Of a DNA stretch of 64,000 nt, positions 6,231-46,720 are shown piece after piece (position 1 is the stretch's first letter; each line of letters starts with the position of its first letter). The position numbers and the translations under genes are program-made. The notes under the pieces were generated by a model, which was given only the letters and a program-made list of their open reading frames with translations, was not told where the DNA came from and made no database searches. This stretch comes from Rhodovarius lipocyclicus. GTDB lineage: Bacteria; Pseudomonadota; Alphaproteobacteria; Acetobacterales; Acetobacteraceae. The DNA lies in NCBI RefSeq assembly GCF_009900765.1, contig NZ_JAAABL010000017.1, positions 1 to 64,000 on the forward strand, read 5' to 3'.

Positions 6231-7862
6231 TCAGCCCGTCACATACCCCATCGCCTTGTCGCGGGCCTGATCCTCGGCCGGCCGGGCGCTGGGTGGGCCG
6301 AAGCCGCCCCCGCCCGAGGTCACCAGCCGCACGATATCGCCGGCCACCAGCGGCCGGTTGTCCGATTTCGGCGGGATGGGCGTCTCCTTCCCGTCGCGGA
6401 TCAGCGTCAGCGTGCCGGGCGCCGCCGGCTGGCCGCCCGCCAGCCCGTAGGGCGCGCTGAGGAAGCGGTCCATATTCGCCGTGAACAGGCAGCGCGGGCT
6501 GTCCACCCGCCATTCCCGCAGCAGCCCCAAGCCCCCGCGATACCGCCCCGCGCCGCCGCTGTCGGGCTGCAGCTCATAGCGGGTGATGGTCAGCGGCATC
6601 TGGCTCTCGATCATCTCGATCGGGATGTTGCTGTTGTTGTGCATGCCGGACGCATAGGCATTCACGCCATCCTTGTGCGGCGCCGCCCCCGATCCGCCGA
6701 TCTCGATCTCCACCAGCACGTCGCGCTTGGCGTCCGCCTTGATGGTCTGGAAGGTGCAGACATAGGAATTGCCGTAATAAGCGGCCGGAATGCGGTCCGG
6801 GATCGCCTGGTGCAGCGCGCCGAACATGGCGTTGAGCAGGCGGTGGGAGACCGCCACGCGATGCGCCACCGGCGCGGGCGCCTTGGCATTCACCACCAGC
6901 CCCTCGGGCGCGATCACCGTGATGGGCCGGTAGCAGCCGGCATTCATGGCGAAACCGCCGCCCGAGGCGCTCATCAGCGCATACATCACCGCGGCGTTGG
7001 AGGAGGCCAGCGTGGCATTCACCGGCCCCTGGCTCTGCGGCGAGCAGCCCGAAAGGTCCGCCACCGCCTCATCGCCCTTGATGGTCAGCTTCACCTTCAG
7101 CTCGATGATCTTGCCGATGTCCACGCCATCGTCGTCGAGCACGTCGGTGAACTCGTAGGTGCCGTCGGGCATGGCCGCGAGGGCGGCGCGCATCCCGGCC
7201 TCGGACTGGTCCAGGATGCGGGCGCCCGCTTCCAGCATGGCCTCGGCGCCATAGCGGTCGGCCAGGCGGATCAGGGCGGCGCGGCCCACCTCCAGGCTGG
7301 CGATCTGGCTGGTCAGGTCGCCCAGCAGCAGATCGGGCTTGCGGATGTTCTGGCGGATCATCGCCCAGACGCCGTCGTTTCGCTTGCCGTTCTCGATCAG
7401 CTTCACGGGGGGGATGCGCAGCCCCTCCTGGAAGATCTCGGTGGCGGTGGCGGCATAGCTGCCGGCCGCGAGCCCGCCCACATCGATGTGGTGGCACAGC
7501 GCACCGACATAGGCGATGCGCTTGCCCTCATGGAACACCGGCCGATAGGCGATGATGTCCGGCAGGTGCTGGCCGCCGCAATAGGGGTCGTTGGTGATGA
7601 CCACATCATCCGGGCCCCAGGCCTCGGCATCCACGAACTGCGTCAGCAGCGTGCGCAGCGCGGCGGACATGGAGTTCAGATGCCCCGGGATGCGGGCGGA
7701 TTGCGCCAGGTTCCAGCCGTCGGCGTCGAAGACGGCGGTGGAATAGTCCAGCAATTCCCGCACGATGGTGCTGCGGCTGGTGCGCCAGATGGTCACGTCC
7801 ATCTCGGCGGCGGCGGCGGTCAGCGCGTTGCGGATGACCTCGATATCGACAGGGCCAAGCAT
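6231..7862 (-). CDS. hyuB: Hydantoinase B/oxoprolinase family protein
   Basis: The 543-aa protein belongs to the HyuB family, the partner of HyuA in ATP-dependent N-methylhydantoinase, 5-oxoprolinase and acetone/acetophenone carboxylase type enzymes. Family features include an N-terminal DIEVIRNALTAAAAEMD, the metal-site region DPYCGGQHLPDI followed by GALCHHIDVGG, and a Gly-rich C-terminal part with GGAGRYRGGLG. The ATG overlaps the hyuA stop (TAATG), so the two genes are translationally coupled and last in the TRAP-hyu operon. The true substrate is not deducible: acyclic amides, hydantoins and ketones are all known for the family. The frame stays open upstream of the start but there it is a shadow of hyuA. 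Confidence 0.9.
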   Translation of the reverse strand: MLGPVDIEVIRNALTAAAAEMDVTIWRTSRSTIVRELLDYSTAVFDADGWNLAQSARIPGHLNSMSAALRTLLTQFVDAEAWGPDDVVITNDPYCGGQHLPDIIAYRPVFHEGKRIAYVGALCHHIDVGGLAAGSYAATATEIFQEGLRIPPVKLIENGKRNDGVWAMIRQNIRKPDLLLGDLTSQIASLEVGRAALIRLADRYGAEAMLEAGARILDQSEAGMRAALAAMPDGTYEFTDVLDDDGVDIGKIIELKVKLTIKGDEAVADLSGCSPQSQGPVNATLASSNAAVMYALMSASGGGFAMNAGCYRPITVIAPEGLVVNAKAPAPVAHRVAVSHRLLNAMFGALHQAIPDRIPAAYYGNSYVCTFQTIKADAKRDVLVEIEIGGSGAAPHKDGVNAYASGMHNNSNIPIEMIESQMPLTITRYELQPDSGGAGRYRGGLGLLREWRVDSPRCLFTANMDRFLSAPYGLAGGQPAAPGTLTLIRDGKETPIPPKSDNRPLVAGDIVRLVTSGGGGFGPPSARPAEDQARDKAMGYVTG

Positions 7863-9913
7863 TATGCGCCCTCCTTCACGGCGATGATGGCACCGGCGGT
7901 GCCCAGGCGCGCGGTCCAGCCGGGCGCGATGAAATGGGTGGCGAAGGCTTCCTCGATGATGGCGGGGCCGGTGATGGTGTCGGCGGCCGCGATGCTGTCG
8001 CGGTCCCACACCCCGGCCTCATGCCAGCCACCGCCCGTGAAGACGCGGCGGGTGCCCTTCAGCGCCGTGCCGGTGGCGGGGGCCATCGGCGCGGGCTCCG
8101 GGCGGGGCAGGCGGCCGGTGGCGGTGACGCGGATGGTCACGATCTCCACCACCTCATCCTCGGCCGAGTAGCTGAAGCGCTGCTTGTGCTGCTCATGGAA
8201 GCGGGCGGCCAAAGCCGCCAGGTCGGCCGCCGTGGGGGCGGTGATGTCGCCCCAGGGCACCAGCAGCTCGAAGGCCTGGCCGTGATAGCGCATGTCGGCC
8301 GAGACGCTCAGCTCCCGCGCGCCGGCCGCCACGCCATCGCGGGCGAGGGCCGCATCGGCCTCGGCGCGCAGCTCGGCGATCAGTGCCGTCAGGGCGGGCA
8401 GGGCCGCTTCGCCCAGCACCAGCAGGCGGGACCGCGCCAGGTCCTGCTTCAGGTCGCTGAACATGATGCCATAGGCCGAGAGCGTGCCCGGGTTCTGGGG
8501 GAACACCACCTCGGTCATGCTCATCTCATCGGCCACCTCGGTGGCATGCAGGCCGCCGGCGCCGCCGAAGGAGAGCAGGGCGAAATCCTTGGGGTGCAGC
8601 CCCTTCTCGAACAGGGAAAGCCGCACGGCCGCGGCCAGCGCCGCGTTGGTCAGGGTCAGGATGCCCTCGGCCGTCTGCTCGCCCGACAGGCCCAGCCGGT
8701 CGCCGAGGCCCGCCATGGCGCGGCCGGTGGCCGGCATGTCCAGCTTCATGGCCCCGCCCAGGAAGAATTCGGCATCCAGCCGCCCGGTGAACAGGTTGGC
8801 GTCCGTCACCGTGGGCTCCGTGCCGCCGCGCCCGTAGGAGACGGGGCCGGGCCGCGCCCCCGCGCTTTCGGGGCCGACCGTCAGCCGCCCGCCATCGCGC
8901 ACGCGCGCGAGCGACCCGCCGCCGGCGCCGATCGTGCGCATCTCGACCATCGGCAGCCGCACCGGCAGGCCGTCGATCTCGCCCTGGGTGATGATGGAGA
9001 CGGCGCCCCCCTGCACCACGGAGACATCATAGCTGGTGCCGCCCATATCCACGGCCACCAGGTTCGGCTTGCCGAGTTCCTGCGCGAGGCGGGAGGCCGC
9101 GAGCGCCCCGCCCGAGGGGCCCGAGAGCAGCAGCCGCGCGGGCTGCTCGCCCGCCGTCTGCGGGCTGCACACGCCGCCATTGGACTGCACGAGGAAGACG
9201 CGCGGCGTGAACTCGCCCGAGCCCAGCCGCGCCTGGAGCTTTTTCATATAGGCGCTGACGACGGGCATCAGCACCGCGTTCAGCACCGTGGTGCTGGTGC
9301 GCTCGTATTCGCGGATCTCGGGCGAGATCTCCGAGGAGAGCGAGATCGGCAAGCCGGGGAAGGCGGCCGCCACCGCGTCGCGCAGCGCCCGCTCATGCGC
9401 CGGGTTGGCATAGGCGTGCAGCAGGCAGATGGCGATGGCCTCGGGCTTCAGCGCCCGCAGCTTCTCCATCAGCCCGTCCAGCGCCAGCGGGGTTTCCACG
9501 CTGCCATCGGCGCGCAGGCGCTCCGTCACGCCCAGGCGCATGTCGCGGGCGATCAGGCAGGGGAAAGGGTCGGGGGCCAGGGCGTACAGGTCACGGCGGA
9601 AATGGCGCGTGATCTCCAGCACATCCTCGAAGCCGGCGGTGGTCAGCAGCACACCGCGGGCCAGCTTGCGTTCCAGCACCGCGTTGGTGGCGATGGTGGT
9701 GCCGTGCAGCAGCAGCCCCACATCGGACAGCGCGAAGCCGAACTTCTCGGAGGCTTCCTTCACGCCGGTCAGCAGGCCGTCCGACGGGTCGGCGGGGGTG
9801 GTGGGGGTCTTCCAGGCCACCACCTGGCCGCGCCGCGCGTCATAGATCTGCAGGTCGGTGAAGGTGCCGCCGATATCCACGGCGATGCGAACGGGGCGAG
9901 TATCCTCGGTCAT
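7862..9913 (-). CDS. hyuA: Hydantoinase A/oxoprolinase family protein
   Basis: The 683-aa protein carries the ASKHA-type ATP-binding signature DIGGTFTD near residue 15, the HGTTIATNAVLER segment near residue 70, VAVDMGGTSYDVS near 285, and the C-terminal GGAGGLHA segment. It is the ATP-hydrolysing subunit that pairs with HyuB. I place the start at the ATG at 9913 (MTEDTRPVRIAVDIGG); the open frame continues far upstream but only as a shadow of dctM. The gap to dctM is 26 bp. Linkage to a dedicated TRAP transporter suggests that the imported compound, an anionic or zwitterionic amide or lactam, is opened by this enzyme at the cost of ATP. That is inference from context. Confidence 0.92.
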   Translation of the reverse strand: MTEDTRPVRIAVDIGGTFTDLQIYDARRGQVVAWKTPTTPADPSDGLLTGVKEASEKFGFALSDVGLLLHGTTIATNAVLERKLARGVLLTTAGFEDVLEITRHFRRDLYALAPDPFPCLIARDMRLGVTERLRADGSVETPLALDGLMEKLRALKPEAIAICLLHAYANPAHERALRDAVAAAFPGLPISLSSEISPEIREYERTSTTVLNAVLMPVVSAYMKKLQARLGSGEFTPRVFLVQSNGGVCSPQTAGEQPARLLLSGPSGGALAASRLAQELGKPNLVAVDMGGTSYDVSVVQGGAVSIITQGEIDGLPVRLPMVEMRTIGAGGGSLARVRDGGRLTVGPESAGARPGPVSYGRGGTEPTVTDANLFTGRLDAEFFLGGAMKLDMPATGRAMAGLGDRLGLSGEQTAEGILTLTNAALAAAVRLSLFEKGLHPKDFALLSFGGAGGLHATEVADEMSMTEVVFPQNPGTLSAYGIMFSDLKQDLARSRLLVLGEAALPALTALIAELRAEADAALARDGVAAGARELSVSADMRYHGQAFELLVPWGDITAPTAADLAALAARFHEQHKQRFSYSAEDEVVEIVTIRVTATGRLPRPEPAPMAPATGTALKGTRRVFTGGGWHEAGVWDRDSIAAADTITGPAIIEEAFATHFIAPGWTARLGTAGAIIAVKEGA

Positions 9914-34250: not shown

Positions 34251-35246
34251 ATGTCCAAGATCGCGCGCCGCGGGCTGATCGCCCGGGCTGGCCTTGCTGT
34301 TCCCTTTCTGGCGGCGCCCCTGCTGGCGCGGGCCCAAGGTGGGGCGCCAGGATTTCCGAACGGCCCCATCCGGCTGATCGTGCCCTTCGCGCCCGGCGGC
34401 AGCACCGACCTGGTGGCCCGGCTGATCGCCACCCCCCTGGCGGAGCGGCTGGGTGTCGCCGTCACCATCGACAACCGCGCGGGGGCCGGGGCCACGGTGG
34501 GCAGCATCGCCGCCATGCAGGCCAACCCCGATGGCCAGACCCTGCTGATGAGCAACATCGCCAGCCAGGCGATCGCGCCCTTCCTGTATCCGGGCCTGCG
34601 TTACGATGTGATGCGGGATTTCACGCATATCGCCATGGTCACCACCAACCCCTCGGTGTTCGTGGCCAATAAGGATTGCGGCATCCGCACCATGGCGGAC
34701 CTGGCGCGCATCCACCGCGCGAGCGCGGAGGGGCTGGACATGGCCAGCTCCGGCGTGGGTTCATCCAATCATATGCTGATTGTCATGCTGGGCCAGCTGC
34801 TGGGCAAGACGGTCAACCACATCCCCTTCCGCGGCGCGGGGCCGGCCATGACCGCCGTGATCGCGGGCCAGGTGCCGATGATGAGCGACAGCCTGCCATC
34901 CTCCGCCGCCTATCTGCGCCAGGGGGTGGTGAATGCCATCGGCATGGCGAGTCCCGAGCGCCATCCGCTGTTCCCGGATGTGCCGACGCTGCGCGAACAG
35001 GGCTTCGACCTGGCCAGCACCAGCTGGTTCGGACTTTCCGGCCCGGCCGGAATGCACGCGGCGGTAGTGGAGCGTTTGAATCGGGAAGTGGGCGTGATCC
35101 TCTCCAACCCCGACGTTCAGCTTCGGTTCAGGGAACTCGGCGGCACGGCGCAGGCGATGCAGGCATCTGAATTCCAAGAATTTGTGCGGCGCGAGATGGA
35201 AAAGTGGGGTCCCGTGGTGCGCGCTTCGGGTGCCCGTGTGGAATAG
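34251..35246 (+). CDS. tctC: Bug/TctC-family tripartite tricarboxylate transporter substrate-binding protein
   Basis: The 331-aa periplasmic protein has a twin-arginine-like signal (IARRGLIARAGLAVPFLAAPLLARAQ) and the Bug fold: PIRLIVPFAPGGSTDLVARL (first substrate loop, SGGSTD-type), VTIDNRAGAGATVGSIAA, MASSGVGSSNHML, HIPFRGAGPAMTAVIAGQVPMM and a C-terminal LNREVGVILSNPDV. It delivers a small organic acid to the TctAB permease encoded downstream. GGGAG (34240 region) precedes the ATG. It is divergent from the M20/creatininase/PanE-like operon. The gap to tctB is 173 bp. Confidence 0.92.
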   Translation: MSKIARRGLIARAGLAVPFLAAPLLARAQGGAPGFPNGPIRLIVPFAPGGSTDLVARLIATPLAERLGVAVTIDNRAGAGATVGSIAAMQANPDGQTLLMSNIASQAIAPFLYPGLRYDVMRDFTHIAMVTTNPSVFVANKDCGIRTMADLARIHRASAEGLDMASSGVGSSNHMLIVMLGQLLGKTVNHIPFRGAGPAMTAVIAGQVPMMSDSLPSSAAYLRQGVVNAIGMASPERHPLFPDVPTLREQGFDLASTSWFGLSGPAGMHAAVVERLNREVGVILSNPDVQLRFRELGGTAQAMQASEFQEFVRREMEKWGPVVRASGARVE

Positions 35247-35419
35247 TCCTTGTAATGTTGCGGTGCAGCATGGGTTTCGGCAATCCTGTTGCGCTTGGGG
35301 CTGGACGCGCGCAAGACGATTTGCATGATGGCGCAAACCCGCTAAGCCCCGGCTGGCGCATCCCTAGTTTGCGGGATGTGCCTCCCCCGTGGGCTGGATG
35401 GTCTGGGAAAGGCTAGAGG

Positions 35420-36022
35420 ATGAAAATCAATCAACGGGACATCGCCTCAGGCGTGTTCCTGATCGTGGTTGCCGCGATCGGCTTGTGGCTCAACACCGAG
35501 CACACGATGGGAACGGCCCGCCGTATGGGCCCTGGTTACATGCCATGGCTGGTGTTCTGGCTGCAGATCGCGCTTGGCGCCGGCGCTGTGCTGGTCGGCC
35601 TGGCCAGCGGCCCCGAGAAGATGCCCCGCTGGAAGACCGACGAGATCGGCGCCTTCGTGGGCAGCCTGGTCGTGGGCTTCGCGGTGTGGTGGCTGCTCAG
35701 CGGCACCGAGGGCTTCCTGGGCACCGGCTACAACGCGCTCGGCGTGGGCATGCTGGCTGGCTTCCTGGTTCTGAGCATCTCGCCCGGCTGGCGCTTCCTC
35801 GGCATGATCTCGGCCTCCATGGCCATCTTCGCCCTGCTGCTGGAGCGGTTCGGCTTTTTCGCGGCGCTGGCGGGCATCATCATCTGCTCCTGCCTGCCGG
35901 AACGCGACCACACCAAGAGCCCGCTCGGCGTGCTCGGCCTGGTCGCCTTCCTGCTCGCGCTGTGCTGGTTCGTGTTCATCTACGAGCTGGATATCCGCGT
36001 GAACCTGTGGCCGACCGCCTGA
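35420..36022 (+). CDS. tctB: Tripartite tricarboxylate transporter small permease TctB
   Basis: The 200-aa membrane protein has four to five hydrophobic segments and the TctB pattern: N-terminal DIASGVFLIVVAAIGLWLNTEHTMGTARRMGPGYMPWLVFWL and a C-terminal GVLGLVAFLLALCWFVFIYELDI. It is the small subunit of the permease with TctA, which starts 10 bp downstream. An AGAGG site before the ATG supports the start. Confidence 0.9.
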   Translation: MKINQRDIASGVFLIVVAAIGLWLNTEHTMGTARRMGPGYMPWLVFWLQIALGAGAVLVGLASGPEKMPRWKTDEIGAFVGSLVVGFAVWWLLSGTEGFLGTGYNALGVGMLAGFLVLSISPGWRFLGMISASMAIFALLLERFGFFAALAGIIICSCLPERDHTKSPLGVLGLVAFLLALCWFVFIYELDIRVNLWPTA

Positions 36023-36032
36023 GGGAAATGAC

Positions 36033-37535
36033 ATGGAACTGCTTCTCAGCAACCTCGCGCACGGCTTCGGCGTCGCCGTCACCTTCACCAATCTGGGTGC
36101 GGCGCTCCTCGGTGCGCTGATCGGCACGGCGATCGGCGTGCTGCCGGGCATCGGCCCGGTGGCGACGATCTCGCTGCTGCTGCCGATCACCTTCGGCATG
36201 ACGGCGACCACCGCCATCATCATGCTCGCGGGCATCTTCTACGGCGCCCAGTACGGCGGCTCCACCACGGCCATCCTGCTCAACCTGCCCGGCGAAGTCT
36301 CCTCGGTCGTGACCACGCTCGAGGGCTACAAGATGGCCCGCAACGGGCGCGCGGGCGCGGCTCTCGCCACCTCGGCGATCGGCAGCTTCTTCGCGGGTTC
36401 CGTGGCCACCATCCTGGTCGCGGCCTCTGGCCCGCTGCTCACGCAGGTGGCGCTGTCCTTCGGCCCGGCCGACTACTTCTCCCTCATGCTGCTCGGCCTC
36501 ATCATCGCCTCGGTGCTGGCGCAGGGCTCGGTCATCAAGGCCATCGGCATGGTGGTGGTGGGCGTGGCGCTCGGCCTGGTCGGCACGGACGTGCAGACCG
36601 GCCAGCAGCGCTTCACCTTCGGCATCCCTGAACTGTCCGACGGCATCGGCTTCGTGCCGGTCGCCATGGGCATGTTCGGCATCGCCGAGATCGTGCTGAA
36701 CCTGGAACGCCCGGAAAGCCGCTCGGTGCTCTCGACCAAGGTCGGCAGCCTGTGGCTGACCCGCGAGGAGTTCCGCCGCGCCATCCCGCCCGTGCTGCGC
36801 GGTACCGTGATCGGCAGCTTCCTGGGCATCCTGCCCGGTGGCGGCGCGTCGCTCGCGGCCTTCGGCAGCTACATGATGGAGCGCAAGATCTCCAAGGGCC
36901 GCCACCAGTTCGGCAACGGCGCCATCGAGGGCGTGGCCGGTCCGGAATCCGCGAACAACGCGGCCGCCCAGACCAGCTTCATCCCGCTGCTGACGCTCGG
37001 CATCCCCTCCAACGCCGTGATGGCGCTGATGGTGGGCGCGCTGATCATCCAGGGCATCCAGCCCGGCCCCCGCATGGTGGAGGCCCAGCCGGACCTGTTC
37101 TGGGGCCTCATCGCCTCCATGTGGGTCGGCAACCTGATGCTGCTCGTGATCAACCTGCCGCTCATCGGCATGTGGGTCAGCCTGCTGAAGGTTCCCTACA
37201 AGTACATGTACCCGTCCATCCTGGTGTTCTGCTCCATCGGTGTGTACTCGCTGAACAACAACGTGTTCGACGTGTACATGACGATCGGGTTCTCCCTCTT
37301 CGGCTACCTCTGCAACAAGCTGCGCCTTGAGGCCGCTCCGTTGCTGATCGGCTTCGTGCTGGGCCCGATGATGGAAGAACACCTGCGCCGCGCCATGCTG
37401 CTTTCCCGCGGCGATGCGATGGTCTTCCTGCAGCGCCCGATCTCGGCCACGCTGCTGGGCATCGGCGCCGCCGCCCTGCTGGCGATGGCCCTGCCCTCGC
37501 TGCGCAAGGGCAAGGACGCCGCGCTGGCCGAATAA
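36033..37535 (+). CDS. tctA: Tripartite tricarboxylate transporter large permease TctA
   Basis: The 500-aa permease has about 11 membrane segments and the conserved TctA motifs: GALIGTAIGVLPGIGPVATISLLLPITFGM, FYGAQYGGSTTAILLNLPGE near the N-terminus and their repeat in the second half, IGSFLGILPGGGASLAAFGSYMMERK, with GVAGPESANNAAAQTSFIPLLTLGIPSNAVMALM. It forms the proton- or sodium-coupled channel of the TctCBA system in the inner membrane. A clear intrinsic terminator follows 25 bp after the stop, closing the operon. Confidence 0.95.
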   Translation: MELLLSNLAHGFGVAVTFTNLGAALLGALIGTAIGVLPGIGPVATISLLLPITFGMTATTAIIMLAGIFYGAQYGGSTTAILLNLPGEVSSVVTTLEGYKMARNGRAGAALATSAIGSFFAGSVATILVAASGPLLTQVALSFGPADYFSLMLLGLIIASVLAQGSVIKAIGMVVVGVALGLVGTDVQTGQQRFTFGIPELSDGIGFVPVAMGMFGIAEIVLNLERPESRSVLSTKVGSLWLTREEFRRAIPPVLRGTVIGSFLGILPGGGASLAAFGSYMMERKISKGRHQFGNGAIEGVAGPESANNAAAQTSFIPLLTLGIPSNAVMALMVGALIIQGIQPGPRMVEAQPDLFWGLIASMWVGNLMLLVINLPLIGMWVSLLKVPYKYMYPSILVFCSIGVYSLNNNVFDVYMTIGFSLFGYLCNKLRLEAAPLLIGFVLGPMMEEHLRRAMLLSRGDAMVFLQRPISATLLGIGAAALLAMALPSLRKGKDAALAE

Positions 37536-37606: not shown

Positions 37607-38359
37607 ATGGATCTGCGGCTTCAGGGGCGCGTGGCGCTCGTCACCGGGGCGTCGGCCGGGTTGGGGCGCACCATCGCCCGCATCCTGGCCGAGGAAGGCT
37701 GCCGCCTGGCCATCCTGGGCCGCCGCCGCCCGCTGCTGGACAGCCTGGCCGCCGAGCTGCCCGCCACCGCCGAGACCCTGGTCATCGAGGAAGACATCAC
37801 CGACCCTACGGCCGCCGCGCGCATCCGCGATGCGGTGCTGGGCCGCTTCGGCTGCTGCGACATCCTGGTGAACAACGCCGGCGGCAGCCGCCCGCAGCCG
37901 GACCTGGGCGCGCCCGAGGTGTGGATGGAGGCGATGGAGCTGAACTTCCACGCCGGGCTGCGCATCACCCACGCCCTGGTCCCCGCGATGCAGGAACGCC
38001 AGTTCGGCCGCATCATCAACATCACGGGCCAGGACGAACCGCACAACGTGAACGCGGCCAACGCCCCCAACGGCGCCGTGCATATCTGGGCCAAGGCGCT
38101 GTCCCGCACCCTGGGGAAGGACGGCATCACGGTGAATTCCATCCCGCCCGGGCGCATCCATTCCGAGCAGATCGACAACCGCATCATGCCCACGCCCGAA
38201 GCGCAGCGCGCCTGGGCGGAAACCCAGGTGCCCGTCGGCTACATCGGCGACGCAGAAGACCTGGCGGTGCTGGTGGCCTTCCTCGCCTCGCCCCGCGCCC
38301 GCTACATCACCGGCCAGGTGGTGCACGTCGACGGCGGCACCCGGCGGTTCTCGCACTGA
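37607..38359 (+). CDS. SDR-family protein without the canonical catalytic Tyr and Lys
   Basis: The 250-aa protein has the SDR Rossmann elements TGASAGLG (about residues 13-20) and NNAGG (about 89-93), and a normal C-terminal FLASPRARYITGQVVHVDGG. Where active SDRs have YxxxK just before the GAVH helix, this one reads NAANAPNGAVH, so Ala151 and Asn155 occupy the expected Tyr and Lys positions; the Ser position is near NITG. A HxxxK (His159, Lys163) lies one turn later. The cofactor site is intact but classical chemistry is doubtful. It precedes the ring-hydroxylating oxygenase locus, where a dihydrodiol dehydrogenase would be expected. Confidence 0.8.
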   Translation: MDLRLQGRVALVTGASAGLGRTIARILAEEGCRLAILGRRRPLLDSLAAELPATAETLVIEEDITDPTAAARIRDAVLGRFGCCDILVNNAGGSRPQPDLGAPEVWMEAMELNFHAGLRITHALVPAMQERQFGRIINITGQDEPHNVNAANAPNGAVHIWAKALSRTLGKDGITVNSIPPGRIHSEQIDNRIMPTPEAQRAWAETQVPVGYIGDAEDLAVLVAFLASPRARYITGQVVHVDGGTRRFSH

Positions 38360-38403: not shown

Positions 38404-38772
38404 CTACCCCGCCTTGTTCAGGATCTCCTCCGGCGTGGACGACACCACGTTCACGTAGCGCGGCTTGAAGGCTGCCGGGCCGCCTTCGATGTACTGGATG
38501 AATTCGGGCTTCATCGCCTTCAGCACCGGCAGGATGGCCGCGTGTTCCTCGATGCTGGCCCATTCCGCGATCAGGAAGAAGCGCGTCTTGTCCGTCGCGT
38601 CCTGGCACAGCACCCCATCCTTCCGCTGGGCGGGGGATTTGTGCATGGGGTTGTCGTCGCCGTAGTCGAACGCCTCGAACAGGCGGATGAATTCCTCCTG
38701 GAAGCCGTCCTTCACATGGAAGTCGTAGATGTGGAGAATGTTGCCGCGCTGGGCGAGCGGTTCCTGGGCCAT
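38404..38772 (-). CDS. ABM-like (antibiotic biosynthesis monooxygenase fold) protein
   Basis: The 122-aa protein fits a single dimeric alpha/beta-barrel domain: ILHIYDFHVKDGFQEEFIRLFEAF, RFFLIAEWASIEEHAAIL, then AMKPEFIQYIEG. The strand-helix pattern, size and the EW...EEHAA segment are like ABM or Dabb proteins, often oxygenases or isomerases of aromatic compounds, but the match is by pattern only. It is divergent from the fused oxygenase gene over 135 bp and convergent with the SDR. A role in the same aromatic pathway is likely from context. Confidence 0.6.
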   Translation of the reverse strand: MAQEPLAQRGNILHIYDFHVKDGFQEEFIRLFEAFDYGDDNPMHKSPAQRKDGVLCQDATDKTRFFLIAEWASIEEHAAILPVLKAMKPEFIQYIEGGPAAFKPRYVNVVSSTPEEILNKAG

Positions 38773-38811: not shown

Positions 38812-38877
38812 TATACTGACGAATTGATCCGGCGCAATGCCTGTTGCGCGGGCATGGCGAAATCCTCAATATACTGA
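38812..38877. promoter_or_regulatory. Direct and inverted repeats in the divergent oxygenase promoter region
   Basis: TATACTGA occurs at 38812-38819 and again at 38870-38877, 58 bp apart in the same orientation. Between them GCGCAA-N6-TTGCGC (38832-38849) is a perfect inverted repeat. The region lies between the ABM-like gene and the oxygenase gene and is AT-richer than its surroundings, consistent with binding sites for a pathway regulator that is not encoded in the immediate vicinity. Confidence 0.45.
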
Positions 38878-38907
38878 GCATCTGGGGCTTCGATGGAGGG
38901 GCCGCGC

Positions 38908-41691
38908 ATGGCGTGGCAGATGGCGGCGCAAGCGTCCGCGCTGAATGAGGGGCAGGTGCTGGGCGTGCGGCTGGGCGAGACCGAGGTCGCGCTCTACCGG
39001 CTCGACGGGCAGGTCTTCGCCACCCATGGCGTCTGCACCCATGCGCTGGCCTTCATGAAGGATGGCTTCCTGGAGGATGGGCAGATCGAATGCCCGCTGC
39101 ACCAGGGCCGCTTCGACGTGCGCACGGGCCGCGCGCTCTGCGCCCCGCTCAGCCGCGACCTGCCGACCTATGCGGTGGAGCGGCGCGGGGCGGAGATCTG
39201 GGTGGATTTGGACCAGCCCGGCCAGGCCGCGCCCAGGCCCGCGCCCCAGCCCCTGGCCAGCGAAACCCGCCGCCTGGTGGTGGTGGGTGCCGGCCAGGCC
39301 GCGGCCGCCGCCATCCGCGCGGCGCGGGAGGCCGGTTTCGCCGGCCCCATCGCCCTGGTGGGCGAGGAACCGCATCTTCCCTACGAACGCCCGCCCCTGT
39401 CGAAGGAGGCGCTGCTCGACCCCGCAGCCGCCATCCCCGATTGCCTGGACCCCACGGCGCTGAACGTGGACCTGCATCTGGGCCTGCGGGTGGAGAGCGT
39501 CGGCGAGGGGCGCGTCACCCTCTCGGGTGGCGCGGTGCTGGAATACGATGCGCTGCTGCTGGCCACCGGCGGCCGGGCGCGGCGCCTGTCGGTGCCGGGC
39601 GCGAACCTGCCCGGCGTGTTCCACCTGCGCACGCGGGAGGACGCGGAGGACATCGCCCGCGCCCTGCGCCAGGCCCGGCGCGTGGTGGTGGTGGGCGGCG
39701 GCTTCATCGGGCTGGAACTGGCCTCGGCCGCGCGCCGGCTGGGCGTGGCCGTCACCCTGCTGGAACAGGCGCCCGAGCTGATGGCCCGCCTGCTGCCCGC
39801 CCCGATCGGCGCCGCCTTCCGCCATCTGGCCGAAAGCCACGGCGTGGAGGTGCGGCGCGGCCTGGCGGTGGAGGCCATCGCGCAGCATGGCCAGGCCCTG
39901 CTGGTCTCGACCGGCGAGGAGCATTTCGAAGCCGACGCCGTGCTGGTGGGGGTGGGGCTGGAGCCCGACACCGCCCTGGCCGCCACCGCCGGTTGCGCCC
40001 TGAAGGCCGGGGCCGTGGCGATCGACGAGGCGGGCCGCACCTCCATCCCCGGCATCTGGGCGGCGGGCGATTGCGCGGCCTATCCCACCGCCCTGCGCGG
40101 TGCCGCGCGCCGGCTGGAAAGCTGGCAATTCGCCGAGGATTCGGGGGCCGCCGCCGGGCGTTCCATCGCGGGCGCCGCGCCCCAGCCCCTGCGAAAGCCC
40201 TGGTTCTGGTCCGACCAGTTCGGGGTGAACATCCAGATGCTGGGCCTGCCCCTGGCCACAGACCGCGTGGCCCGCGCCGGCGCCTGTTTCCACACCGCCG
40301 ATGCCGCGGGCCAGCCCACCGCCATCATCGCCTTCAACGACGCGGCCGCCATCCGCGCCGCGCGCACCGCCCTGACCATCCCCGCCGAGGCCCGCTGGCT
40401 CGACCAGCCTGAGGAGGAACCGCCCATGGACACGCATGCGGAAAATCGCGGCATCACCCTCTCCCGCCGCTACGCCTGGCCCGCCGAGGGCCTGACCCGC
40501 ATCCCGGACTGGGTCTACACCGACCCCTGGATCTACGAGCGCGAGGTGGAGCGCATCTTCAAGGGCCGCAGCTGGAACTACGTGGCGCTCGAATCCGAGA
40601 TCCCGAATTCCGGCGACTATATCCGCAGCCATGTCGGGCCCACCCCCGTGGTGGTCTCGCGCGCCGAGGACGGCAGCATCAACGTCTTCGAGAACCGCTG
40701 CACCCACCGTGCCGCCGAGTTCTGCCGGGAGCTGAAGGGCAATGTCGCGGAATTCGTCTGCCCTTATCACCAGTGGACCTATGACCTGAAGGGCAACCTG
40801 CAGGGCGTGCCGTTCCGGCGCGGGGCCGCGGGCAAGGGCGGCATGCCGGCCGACTTCAAGGTGGAGGATCACGGCCCGCGCAAGCTGTCCGTCACCACCC
40901 ATCGCGGCGTGGTCTTCGCCAGCTATGCCGACGACATGGAAAGCTTGGCCGACTATCTGGGCCCCGAGGTGATGCGCGAGTTCGAGGCCACCTTCGACGG
41001 CCGCAAGCTGGTGATCCTGGGCCATTACCGCCACACCCTACCGGGCAACTGGAAGCTCTATCACGAGAACCTCAAGGACCCGTATCACGCGACCCTGCTG
41101 CACACCTTCCTGGTCGCCTTCGGCCTGCTGGTGGCGGGCAACCGCAGCCTGATGCTGGCCGATGCCAGCGGCCGGCATGGCGTGATGTGCTCGGCCAAAT
41201 CCGACCCGTCCAAGATCGCGGCGGAGGACAAGAAGGAAATGCGGGCCTTCCATGACGGCATGAAGCTGGAAGACCCGCGCATGATGGATTTCTTCGACGA
41301 GTTCGACAGCGAATGGTCCGTCACCATGTCCACCATCTGGCCGAACCTGATCGTCCAGCGGGAGATGAACACGCTGGGCATCCGCCAGATCGTGCCGACC
41401 GGCCCGAACGAGTTCATCATGAAATGGACCATGTTCGGTTTCGAGGGCGACACCCCCGAGATGACCGCCCACCGCCTGCGCCAGGGCAACCTGATGGGCC
41501 CCGCGGGCTTCCTGGGCCTGGAAGACAACGAAGCGATGAAGTTCGTCCAGGACGGCATGCTGCGCGTGCCGGACGGCGAGCACTATGTCGCGCTCGACCC
41601 CGCGACGCCGGAGGGCACCTCCGACACGCTCATTTCCGAATCCGCGATCCGCGCCATGTACCGCCATTGGCGCGAGGTGATGGGGCTCTGA
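38908..41691 (+). CDS. Single-frame Rieske ferredoxin / FAD reductase / Rieske oxygenase alpha subunit
   Basis: One uninterrupted frame of 927 codons encodes a whole ring-hydroxylating system. Residues 1-105: Rieske ferredoxin domain, ligands Cys43, His45, Cys62, His65. Residues about 120-500: ferredoxin reductase with FAD motif VVVGAGQAA (about 125-132), NAD motif VVVVGGGFIGLE (about 259-270) and IWAAGDCAAYPT. From Met507: oxygenase alpha subunit, with Rieske ligands at Cys92, His94, Cys112 and His115 of that part, and mononuclear iron motif NLKDPYHATLLH (Asp218, His221, His226). AGGAGG at 40412-40417 lies 8 nt before Met507 (ATG 40426), so the oxygenase may also be made alone. Start ATG 38908 follows GGAGG; ATG 38893 is an alternative. 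The beta subunit gene follows. A benzoate/anthranilate-type substrate is likely but not proven. Confidence 0.88.
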   Translation: MAWQMAAQASALNEGQVLGVRLGETEVALYRLDGQVFATHGVCTHALAFMKDGFLEDGQIECPLHQGRFDVRTGRALCAPLSRDLPTYAVERRGAEIWVDLDQPGQAAPRPAPQPLASETRRLVVVGAGQAAAAAIRAAREAGFAGPIALVGEEPHLPYERPPLSKEALLDPAAAIPDCLDPTALNVDLHLGLRVESVGEGRVTLSGGAVLEYDALLLATGGRARRLSVPGANLPGVFHLRTREDAEDIARALRQARRVVVVGGGFIGLELASAARRLGVAVTLLEQAPELMARLLPAPIGAAFRHLAESHGVEVRRGLAVEAIAQHGQALLVSTGEEHFEADAVLVGVGLEPDTALAATAGCALKAGAVAIDEAGRTSIPGIWAAGDCAAYPTALRGAARRLESWQFAEDSGAAAGRSIAGAAPQPLRKPWFWSDQFGVNIQMLGLPLATDRVARAGACFHTADAAGQPTAIIAFNDAAAIRAARTALTIPAEARWLDQPEEEPPMDTHAENRGITLSRRYAWPAEGLTRIPDWVYTDPWIYEREVERIFKGRSWNYVALESEIPNSGDYIRSHVGPTPVVVSRAEDGSINVFENRCTHRAAEFCRELKGNVAEFVCPYHQWTYDLKGNLQGVPFRRGAAGKGGMPADFKVEDHGPRKLSVTTHRGVVFASYADDMESLADYLGPEVMREFEATFDGRKLVILGHYRHTLPGNWKLYHENLKDPYHATLLHTFLVAFGLLVAGNRSLMLADASGRHGVMCSAKSDPSKIAAEDKKEMRAFHDGMKLEDPRMMDFFDEFDSEWSVTMSTIWPNLIVQREMNTLGIRQIVPTGPNEFIMKWTMFGFEGDTPEMTAHRLRQGNLMGPAGFLGLEDNEAMKFVQDGMLRVPDGEHYVALDPATPEGTSDTLISESAIRAMYRHWREVMGL

Positions 41692-41693
41692 CC

Positions 41694-42203
41694 ATGCCGG
41701 ACACGCTGACCCTGGACCCGCGCCTCTCGGCCCTGCTGCTGCGGGCGGAGGTGGACGCCTTCAACACCGCATACTGCGCGGCGCTGGACGCGCAGAAGCT
41801 GATGGAATGGACGGAATTCTTCACCGAGGACGCGTTCTATTCCGTCATCAGCCGGGAGAATTTCGACAGCGGCCTGCCCGTGGGCCTGATCCATTGCGAG
41901 GGCCGCGCGATGGTCAAGGACCGCGCCTTCGCCCTGCTGAAGACCGCGATGTTCGGGCCGCGCTACCTGCGGCACATGGTCTCCAACCTGGCGGTGGAAG
42001 CCCCCCGCGCGGATGGCAGCTTCGAGGCGCGGGCGAACTACATCGTGTTCGAAGTGCTGACCGACCGGCCCGATGCCCGCATCCTGCAGGTGGGCAGCTT
42101 CCTGGACGTGTTCCGGCGGGTGGATGGGGCGCTGAAACTGGCGTCGCGGCGCTGCGTGTACGATACGCTGCTGGTGCCGACGGCGCTGTGCATTCCCGTG
42201 TGA
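41694..42203 (+). CDS. Ring-hydroxylating dioxygenase beta subunit
   Basis: The 169-aa protein has the NTF2/SnoaL-like fold of oxygenase beta subunits: RAEVDAFNTAYCAALDAQKLMEWTEFFTEDAFYSVI, then RYLRHMVSNLAVEAPRADGSFEARANYIVFEVLTD and the C-terminal RVDGALKLASRRCVYDT. It is a structural partner of the alpha subunit in an alpha3beta3 hexamer. It begins 2 bp after the fused gene's stop, so the ratio of fusion protein and beta subunit is presumably set by coupling. A modular hairpin repeat starts just after the stop. Confidence 0.92.
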   Translation: MPDTLTLDPRLSALLLRAEVDAFNTAYCAALDAQKLMEWTEFFTEDAFYSVISRENFDSGLPVGLIHCEGRAMVKDRAFALLKTAMFGPRYLRHMVSNLAVEAPRADGSFEARANYIVFEVLTDRPDARILQVGSFLDVFRRVDGALKLASRRCVYDTLLVPTALCIPV

Positions 42204-44204: not shown

Positions 44205-45097
44205 GCATCCACCCCGTGGCGGGCGCGCGCGGCCTGGCGGCGGGGCAGGGCGGGCAGCCAGGGCGGCGGCGCGGGGCCCCGCAGCAGCGCCACGCACAGC
44301 GCCAGCACCAGCACGAAGCCCGGCACCGCCACCCCCAGCAGCGCCAGCAGCAGCGGCCGGTTGGGCACGCTGGGCCGGATCTCCACCATGGGGGCGGAGA
44401 CGAGCCGCGCCGCCACCACCGCGTCGGCCGCCACCACCAGCGCGGCGCGCTGCTGCTGCGCCAGCAGGTCGAACAGGGCGCCGCGCTGGTACAGGTCGCG
44501 CTCCTGCGCGATGCGGGCGTTCAGGGCCTGGATGCGGCCCTGGGCCAGCAGCAGCAGGTCGTCGCGCACCTTGGCCTCGGCGAAGCCATGCAGGCGGCGC
44601 AGCATGTCCAGCGCCAGCGCCCGGTCGCGCCAGGGCAGGGTGATGGACCAGGTCATCGCCGCGCCATCCTGGTCGGTGGCCAGCGAGCGGTCGAGGAAGC
44701 CGCGCAGATCGTCCAGATCGGCCTCGATGCGCAAATCCAGCGCGCGGCGCAACGCGCCCATCGCGCCCTCGGCCCGGCGTTCGGTCATCTGCGCCAGGAT
44801 GGGGGTGTCGCGGGCCAGCATCTCCGCCGCCTCGGCCGAGCCCAGCGCCGAGAGATACACCGCGAAATTGCCCCCCGGCCGGCTGTCCAGCAGGCCCGAC
44901 TGCATCAAGGGCACCGGGGAGAGCAGGGCGGAGGTGGCCATGGAGGTGGTCTCGGCGGGTGCCACATCCATGGCGGCGACATAGCTGCGCGGCCAGGACC
45001 AGATCAGGCTGGCCGCGGCGGCATAGAGCAGGACCACCGCCGCCAGCATGCGCCAGCGCCAGCCCCACACCCTCCGCAGCAATTCCTCCAGCGGCAT
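44201..45097 (-). CDS. Wzz-like polysaccharide chain-length/export protein
   Basis: The 298-aa protein has one membrane segment near the N-terminus (RMLAAVVLLYAAAASLIW, about residues 16-33) and one near the C-terminus (LLLALLGVAVPGFVLVLALCVALL, about 246-269), with a periplasmic domain rich in helices between them, the topology of Wzz/GumC chain-length proteins. The loop RPSVPNRP just before the second segment is the typical PxxPxxP-like motif. No kinase domain follows. It is the first gene of a three-gene polysaccharide operon and is divergent from fdhD over 116 bp. Confidence 0.82.
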   Translation of the reverse strand: MPLEELLRRVWGWRWRMLAAVVLLYAAAASLIWSWPRSYVAAMDVAPAETTSMATSALLSPVPLMQSGLLDSRPGGNFAVYLSALGSAEAAEMLARDTPILAQMTERRAEGAMGALRRALDLRIEADLDDLRGFLDRSLATDQDGAAMTWSITLPWRDRALALDMLRRLHGFAEAKVRDDLLLLAQGRIQALNARIAQERDLYQRGALFDLLAQQQRAALVVAADAVVAARLVSAPMVEIRPSVPNRPLLLALLGVAVPGFVLVLALCVALLRGPAPPPWLPALPRRQAARARHGVDA

Positions 45098-45213
45098 CCT
45101 GCCCCGCGATGAAGCTCTCGCTTACTGATGCGTGCAAAAGGCGCGCCGTGCAACCATTCCGTGCATCGCGGCCACCCCTTGCGCCGGGCCCCGCGCGGGG
45201 GCACCTGCGAGGG

Positions 45214-46098
45214 ATGGCCCCCTTGCTCGTCCAGCCCGACCCCTCCGACCCGCGCCTGACGCGGCGCGTCACCGGCATCGACCAGACCGGCGCGCCGGTC
45301 GAGACCGCCGTCACGGTCGAGCGCCCGCTGACCCTGTACCTGAACGGGCAGGAGATCGTGACGATGATGACCATCCTGGACCGGCCGGAGGATTTGGCCG
45401 TCGGCTATCTGCTGAACCAGGGCATGCTGAAGGCCCATTCGGTGGTGGAGGGCGTCGATTACGACGAGGACCTGTCCGTCGTCGTCGTCCGCACGCCGGA
45501 GCGCACGAATTTCGAGGAAAAGCTGCGCAAGAAGACCCTGACCAGCGGCTGCGCCCAGGGCACCGCCTTCGGCGACCTGATGGAGGATTTCTCCGAGGTG
45601 CGGCTTCCGGCGGAGGCCGCGTTGCGCACCTCCGACCTCTATCGCCTGCTGCACGCCATCAACACCCTGCCCAGCCTGTATCTGGAGGCAGGCGCCATCC
45701 ATGGCTGCGCGCTGTGCCAGGGCGACCAGCCGCTGGTCTATATGGAGGATGTCGGCCGCCACAACGCGGTGGACAAGATCGCGGGCTGGATGTTCCGCAA
45801 CGGCGTGGGGGGCGGGGACAAGCTGTTCTACACCACCGGCCGGCTGACCAGCGAAATGGTCATCAAGACGGTGCGGATGGGCATTCCCATCCTGGTCTCG
45901 CGCTCGGGCTTCACCGCCTGGGGGGTGGAGCTGGCGCGGGAGGCCAACCTGACCCTGATCGGCCGCTGCAAGGGCAAGCGCTTCACCGCGCTGGCGGGGC
46001 TGGAGCGCATCGTCTTCGACGCCGACCTGGCCTATGTGCCCGAGGAAAGCGCGAAGCACTGGCGCAAGAACAGCCGGGAGGCCGGCGATGAGGGCTGA
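45214..46098 (+). CDS. fdhD: FdhD sulfur carrier for formate dehydrogenase
   Basis: The 294-aa protein matches Fdh[63 protein letters not shown] and [49 protein letters not shown]. FdhD transfers sulfur from IscS to the molybdenum cofactor of formate dehydrogenase. In E. coli the loop reads C-G-x-C-G; here it reads [10 protein letters not shown], so only the first Cys is present. I use ATG 45214; ATG 45109 is an in-frame alternative with no better ribosome binding site. mobA starts within its end (11-bp overlap). The upstream region contains CGTGCA three times and an 8-bp inverted repeat. Confidence 0.93.
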
Positions 46099-46720
46099 CA
46101 CCGCCGCCGTGGTGCTGGCCGGGGGCCTGGCGCGGCGCATGGGCGGCGGGGACAAGCCGCTGCGCGAAGTGGCCGGCCGCACCATGCTCGACCGCGTGCT
46201 CGGCGCCCTGCGCCCCCAGGCCGCCCCGCTCGCCATCAACGCCAATGGCGACCCCGCGCGCTTCGCCGCCTGGGGCCTGCCGGTTCTGCCCGACCCGATG
46301 GAGGGTTTCCCCGGCCCGCTGGCCGGCATCCTGGCCGCGATGGATTGGGCCGCGGGGCTCGGCCTGCGCTGGGTGGTGACGGCGCCGGGCGACAGCCCTT
46401 TCCTGCCCGCCGACTACATCGCCCGCCTGCACGCGGTGCGACAGGAAGCGGGCGTGCCGCTGGCCTGCGCCGAATCGGGCGGCCACACTCACCCGCCCTG
46501 CGCCCTGTGGGAGACCGGCCTGCGCGACGCCCTGCGCGATGCCCTGGCCGGGGGCGAGCGCAAGATCGACCGCTGGACCGCGCGGCACGGCGTGGCCCAT
46601 GCGCAATGGCCCAGCCTGCCGCTTGATCCCTTCTTCAACGCCAACACATGGGAAGAACTGGCGGAGGCCGAGGCACTTCTGCATAAGGCCACAGCCAGTC
46701 CTTCGAGGAGCCAGCCATGA
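46088..46720 (+). CDS. mobA: Molybdenum cofactor guanylyltransferase MobA
   Basis: The 210-aa protein attaches GMP to molybdopterin, giving the bis-MGD cofactor used by formate dehydrogenases. Motifs: [32 protein letters not shown] (P-loop-like nucleotide binding with Gly-rich stretch and Lys), [42 protein letters not shown] and the C-terminal [14 protein letters not shown]. It overlaps fdhD and its stop overlaps the start of the small membrane protein gene. The grouping fits maturation of a molybdoenzyme, although no formate dehydrogenase gene is in the window. Confidence 0.92.

Follow-up and report, generated by a model that had tools for sequence, protein, structure and literature searches.

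Does one reading frame of this Rhodovarius lipocyclicus stretch encode an entire Rieske oxygenase electron chain, and is more than one protein made from it? The window is the whole stretch of DNA analyzed, 64,000 nucleotides in length. Positions 38908-41691 of its plus strand hold a single frame of 927 codons in which a Rieske ferredoxin, an FAD/NADH reductase, and an oxygenase alpha subunit follow one another (Table 1). The original prediction had described this frame as uninterrupted, and it is indeed open from 38893 to 41691. The ATG at 38908 is a likelier start than 38893, given its Shine-Dalgarno (SD) duplex energy (-9.8 vs. -4.7) and homologues that start at the same residue.

The closest solved structure to the ferredoxin domain is the naphthalene dioxygenase ferredoxin (2qpz), and the reductase domain is HcaD/AndAa-like. 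The oxygenase part is composed of a second Rieske domain followed by Ring_hydroxyl_A (Pfam, residues 707-926). All of the predicted ligands of both Rieske centres and of the D-x2-H-x4-H iron site are present, with D873 as the third iron ligand. These residues (C43/H45/C62/H65, C598/H600/C618/H621, and D724/H727/H732/D873) are invariant in 28/28 aligned fusions. The beta subunit gene likewise lies where it had been placed, 2 bp after the fusion stop, and matches PF00866 from 41694. The AlphaFold model of the fusion is of no more than fair quality (mean pLDDT 69.5); the linker and the oxygenase are modelled with low confidence, and the oxygenase half is too uncertain for judging inter-domain geometry.

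Features of the alpha-beta Rieske ring-hydroxylating oxygenases are found here, namely the Rieske CxH...CxxH motif, a 2-His-1-carboxylate site with a bridging Asp, and an adjacent beta subunit. A GR-type FAD/NADH reductase with Reductase_C and a Rieske ferredoxin are shared with the three-component Rieske oxygenases; instead of being separate proteins, however, the components occupy a conserved single frame. As a whole, the locus is best explained as a naturally self-sufficient three-component Rieske oxygenase, probably with two products and with ring monohydroxylation as its putative reaction. This reading of the sequence is considered quite likely. Activity of the fusion is predicted to be driven by NADH, from which electrons would pass to the FAD of the reductase domain and then to the Rieske [2Fe-2S] cluster of the tethered ferredoxin. 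The tethered ferredoxin would in turn reduce the Rieske centre of the alpha subunit, which would supply the mononuclear iron.

Table 1. Positions of the fused gene, its domains, and neighbouring features in the window.
Feature	Position	Strand	Evidence or remark
tctC-tctB-tctA, tripartite tricarboxylate-type transporter genes	34251..37535	+	order tctCBA-SDR-fusion-beta common to congener
Short-chain dehydrogenase (SDR)	37607..38359	+	upstream of fusion, same direction, syntenic in congener
Divergent 122-aa protein, weak ABM-domain match	38404..38772	-	kept beside oxygenase in several relatives
Fused gene, ferredoxin-reductase-oxygenase, 927 aa	38908..41691	+	ORF and Pfam; fusion recurs in ~30 genomes
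Rieske ferredoxin domain, aa 3-99, ligands C43 H45 C62 H65	38914..39204	+	Pfam Rieske 3-88
FAD/NADH ferredoxin reductase domain, aa 121-490	39268..40377	+	Pyr_redox_2 122-413, Pyr_redox, Reductase_C 432-490
Variable reductase/oxygenase linker	40378..40473	+	non-alignable; core aa 502-539, pLDDT 25-36
Internal Shine-Dalgarno AGGAGG	40412..40417	+	8 nt before ATG 40426
Putative second product, free oxygenase alpha, 421 aa	40426..41691	+	conserved SD-start at junction
Oxygenase Rieske cluster motif C598-x-H600...C618-x2-H621	40699..40770	+	invariant in aligned fusions
Mononuclear iron site D724-x2-H727-x4-H732	41077..41103	+	third ligand D873 at 41524-41526
Oxygenase beta subunit, AndAd-like	41694..42203	+	PF00866; adjoins oxygenase in relatives

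Substrate and gene context

The picolinate pathway includes picA and picB1B2B3B4, where PicB is 6-hydroxypicolinate monooxygenase (PMC10142695). In Variovorax sp. SRS16, split genes for ferredoxin, reductase, oxygenase, and beta subunit are flanked on one side by a gene for a PicA-type molybdenum hydroxylase and on the other by PicC-, PicD-, and PicF-type genes. The split oxygenase of this strain is ~61% identical to that of the window. Paracoccus seriniphilus (L113) carries the fused gene within a full pic cluster, and many other fused homologues have pic-type genes next to them. Orthology to the pic-cluster oxygenase is evident from the fused orthologue in P. seriniphilus and from the position of the fused sequences as sister to split pic-type operons. 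The relatives in pic clusters are apparently fused forms of PicB, i.e., 6-hydroxypicolinate monooxygenases.

Among solved structures, the closest oxygenase alpha subunit is that of salicylate 5-hydroxylase, NagG (7c8z, E 1e-118). The proposed chemistry is monohydroxylation of a hydroxylated N-heteroaromatic or aromatic acid, based on descent from 6-hydroxypicolinate 3-monooxygenase (PicB) and on the likeness to NagG, and this reaction type is fairly likely. Assignment as anthranilate 1,2-dioxygenase was rejected, with NCBIfam equivalog scores below the cut-offs for AndAc (407/750 bits), AndAa (246/650 bits), and AndAb (102/150 bits).

Aromatic acids had been predicted as substrates. For the family, hydroxypyridine carboxylates or related compounds are the narrower expectation. 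No such choice is firm for the genus of the window, where the substrate is uncertain because PicA is present while PicC and a close PicD are absent. PicC was looked for in the window genome and its congener (L140) and was not found, and PicD is matched in both only by a distant NicX-like protein (34%). The window genome encodes this protein at G000:C40, among unrelated genes. On these grounds, a simple pic pathway was rejected for that genome.

Rather than on a picolinate derivative, the enzyme of this genus could act on a different aromatic hydroxy-acid that enters through TctCBA and is processed by the neighbouring short-chain dehydrogenase. The prospect is rated a little short of even, concerns the substrate only, and is compatible with the self-sufficient enzyme described above. 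Besides the missing PicC and close PicD, it draws on the tctCBA-SDR-fusion-beta synteny in the congener and on the NagG-like oxygenase. Against it stand orthologues of PicA1-3 with MarR in both genomes (PicA3 62%), which lie away from the fused gene; in the congener the distance is 25 kb within one contig. TctCBA is the probable uptake system of the substrate.

Other features of the region were also recorded. The sequence AATATACTGA is located at window positions 38868-38877, ~30 bp before the start of the fused gene, and is identical and in the same place in the congener and in an Acetobacteraceae MAG (L034). It is absent from all other loci compared; a role as a -10 element or as an operator is possible. 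Downstream of the oxygenase, at 44959-46720, are genes resembling fdhD and mobA (molybdenum cofactor), and the window genome has at least 11 strong matches to molybdenum hydroxylase large subunits.

The internal start and its predicted products

A perfect AGGAGG 8 nt before an internal ATG had suggested that free alpha subunit is also made. The motif is there, with an SD energy (-12.1) that is the strongest among the in-frame start codons of the ORF and stronger than at any ORF start tested in the window. Linkers between reductase and oxygenase vary in length and are non-alignable among the fusions. An in-frame ATG or GTG follows a GGAG-type sequence in 26 of the 28 fusions, at most ~25 codons from the conserved YxWP motif of the oxygenase; in the remaining two (L025/L104) the SD-preceded start is a GTG that lies farther upstream. 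Weaker internal SDs are seen in Alloalcanivorax and Paracoccus.

Each ORF has 44-70 further in-frame start codons, and few or none of them have as favourable an SD energy as the junction start. In a window permutation test, the reductase/oxygenase junction gave a Fisher combined p of ~2e-14 (14 lineages, one value each), which is indicative rather than exact because lineages share ancestry. The ferredoxin/reductase junction, used as a control in the same test, gave p ~1. The SD core occurs in differing codon phases and encodes differing residues (EE, KE, LED, RGD, LRRGT). This points to the nucleotide signal, and not the peptide, as the target of selection. The internal SD-start is evolutionarily conserved.

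The gene is predicted to have two products. One is the 927-aa fusion, probably started at ATG 38908; the other is the alpha subunit alone (421 aa), started at ATG 40426, which has a strong SD of its own. Alpha would assemble with the separately encoded beta as (alpha-beta)3, and a hexamer (alpha3beta3) would contain alpha subunits both with and without the tether. Its complement of tethered reductases would be below three, and the reductase:oxygenase ratio would be set within one mRNA. Several relatives in the clade encode only oxygenase and beta, indicating that alpha is functional without the tether. The original preference for a whole chain in one polypeptide plus free alpha gains support from the conserved fusion, its ligands, and the internal SD-start, as far as sequence comparison reaches. 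It is rated somewhat likely that this is a natural self-sufficient Rieske oxygenase in which a conserved internal ribosome-binding site yields both fusion and bare alpha, and hence sub-stoichiometric, translationally set ferredoxin-reductase modules per (alpha-beta)3. Full-length and truncated products of one gene are reportedly established elsewhere, for the internal starts of ClpB and SctQ.

Translation of the fusion at full length only is an unlikely alternative, in which the internal SD-start would be left over from the time when the oxygenase had its own gene, or would arise incidentally from the acidic residues of the linker (GAG GAG). A genuine oxygenase start does occupy the same point in split relatives, and most SD cores encode Glu in the linker; the start and SD nevertheless persist in nearly all lineages despite non-alignable linkers. 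In L029, L153, and Alloalcanivorax, moreover, the SD sits in other codon contexts that give RGD, KGD, or LRRGT, and the ferredoxin/reductase junction, equally old, has kept no start.

A functional enzyme composed of free alpha and beta, with reductases acting in trans and a fused half that is not needed or is produced only in trace amounts, is very improbable. In its favour, the upstream SD is weaker than the internal one, and within the clade the reductase is gone in L035 and L037 and both ferredoxin and reductase are gone in L033, L051, L094-L097, and L100; the genomes of these carrier-losing relatives hold only other reductases elsewhere (34-45% identity). Where the fusion is intact, however, purifying selection acts on ferredoxin and reductase alike, and both keep every ligand. 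Ferredoxin, reductase, and oxygenase have dN/dS values of 0.19, 0.25, and 0.045, respectively, between the window and its congener, and of 0.19, 0.11, and 0.009 between two Xanthobacter, the two pairs on which these figures rest. Every domain of the fusion is under purifying selection, and the fused half is maintained. In a separate comparison of L001 and L009, the oxygenase domain is 98% conserved vs. 87% for ferredoxin and reductase of the same polypeptide.

Distribution and origin of the fusion

The original prediction allowed for a recent loss of the stop codon of a separate reductase gene and called for a search of related genomes for the same in-frame junction. The congener has identical architecture and the same junction at 91% identity. 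The same complete in-frame fusion recurs in ~30 further genomes, among them finished ones and a plasmid, and the most distant copies are 53-60% identical; some records are near copies of one another, and distinct fused sequences number a little under 30. A scan of species genomes located carriers in Bradyrhizobium, Xanthobacter, Azospirillum, Oceanibaculum, Pseudolabrys, Alloalcanivorax, and others; Paracoccus is a further carrier, and a family member has a 1028-aa form. Whole-genome samples held the fusion in five Alphaproteobacteria of 385, and further samples added one more alphaproteobacterial genome and one genome of another class of the same phylum. No fused relative was found in the viral contigs searched.

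Although an out-of-frame TGA (40410-40412) overlaps the SD, as expected of a former operon junction, the joining of two genes by recent stop-codon loss, frameshift, or assembly error is refuted to a practically negligible chance, since homologues in ~30 independent assemblies carry the same fusion and it is ancestral in a clade spanning Alpha- and Gammaproteobacteria.

The P. seriniphilus sequence, from the plasmid collection, was suspected of a frameshift due to a half-length gene-table entry. This was rejected, as the fused frame is intact at 7038-9851. In the PLSDB gene table for this species, the frame is entered only as its oxygenase half, beginning at an internal ATG, and annotation may miss similar fusions in other records.

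In the oxygenase-domain tree, all fused sequences form one clade (39 rows, SH-aLRT 98) that is sister to split ferredoxin/reductase/oxygenase/beta operons with the same gene order. Fused reductases also form one group, the sister of which is four split pic-type reductases; the exception is L115, a split row on a very long branch that falls among the fused reductases. On this evidence, the fusion is ancient and most probably has a single origin in an operon, with several later breakdowns. In L035 (1657-3336) and L037 (4842-6692), ferredoxin is joined straight to oxygenase, a second natural fusion type.

Comparison with known systems

PicB1B2B3B4 of Alcaligenes faecalis JQ135 and Bordetella RB50 (PMC10142695) has the gene order ferredoxin, reductase, oxygenase, beta, as seen in Variovorax. 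Read from this order, PicB1-4 are apparently those four components. The fusion differs in joining three of the four and keeping an internal start, and the window genome differs in its lack of PicC and a close PicD. The three-component systems AndAabcd, HcaCDEF, and BphA1-4, with their GR-type reductases, have an identical domain and cofactor set, but as separate proteins. NagGH hydroxylates para to the ring hydroxyl, like PicB. Its alpha subunit is the closest one solved, but its electron carriers are separate.

A 2025 review states that no natural self-sufficient Rieske oxygenase has been identified, in contrast to P450s, and treats such enzymes as an engineering goal (PMC12445004). None was found in the open-access literature, to which the search was confined, and priority is therefore not assured. 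If the reading of the locus is true, dozens of natural templates with linkers are available from several bacterial orders, along with an evolved answer to the reductase:oxygenase stoichiometry problem. Questions of electron transfer through a tether, of uncoupling, and of how linkers should be designed could then be put to direct test in Rieske oxygenases.

Self-sufficient P450s (CYP116B, BM3) also hold the whole electron chain in one polypeptide but are heme enzymes of unrelated fold. In the caffeine N-demethylase NdmCDE, NdmD has a Rieske domain fused to a reductase, and the oxygenase is separate (PMC4408171). NdmD is thus a partial precedent for the fusion, but its reductase is FMN-type and its oxygenase unfused. 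The styrene monooxygenase StyA1/StyA2B has a free oxygenase beside a fused oxygenase-reductase (PMC6017014) and is the nearest functional parallel among oxygenases, although it is a flavin epoxidase made from two genes rather than from one gene with two starts.
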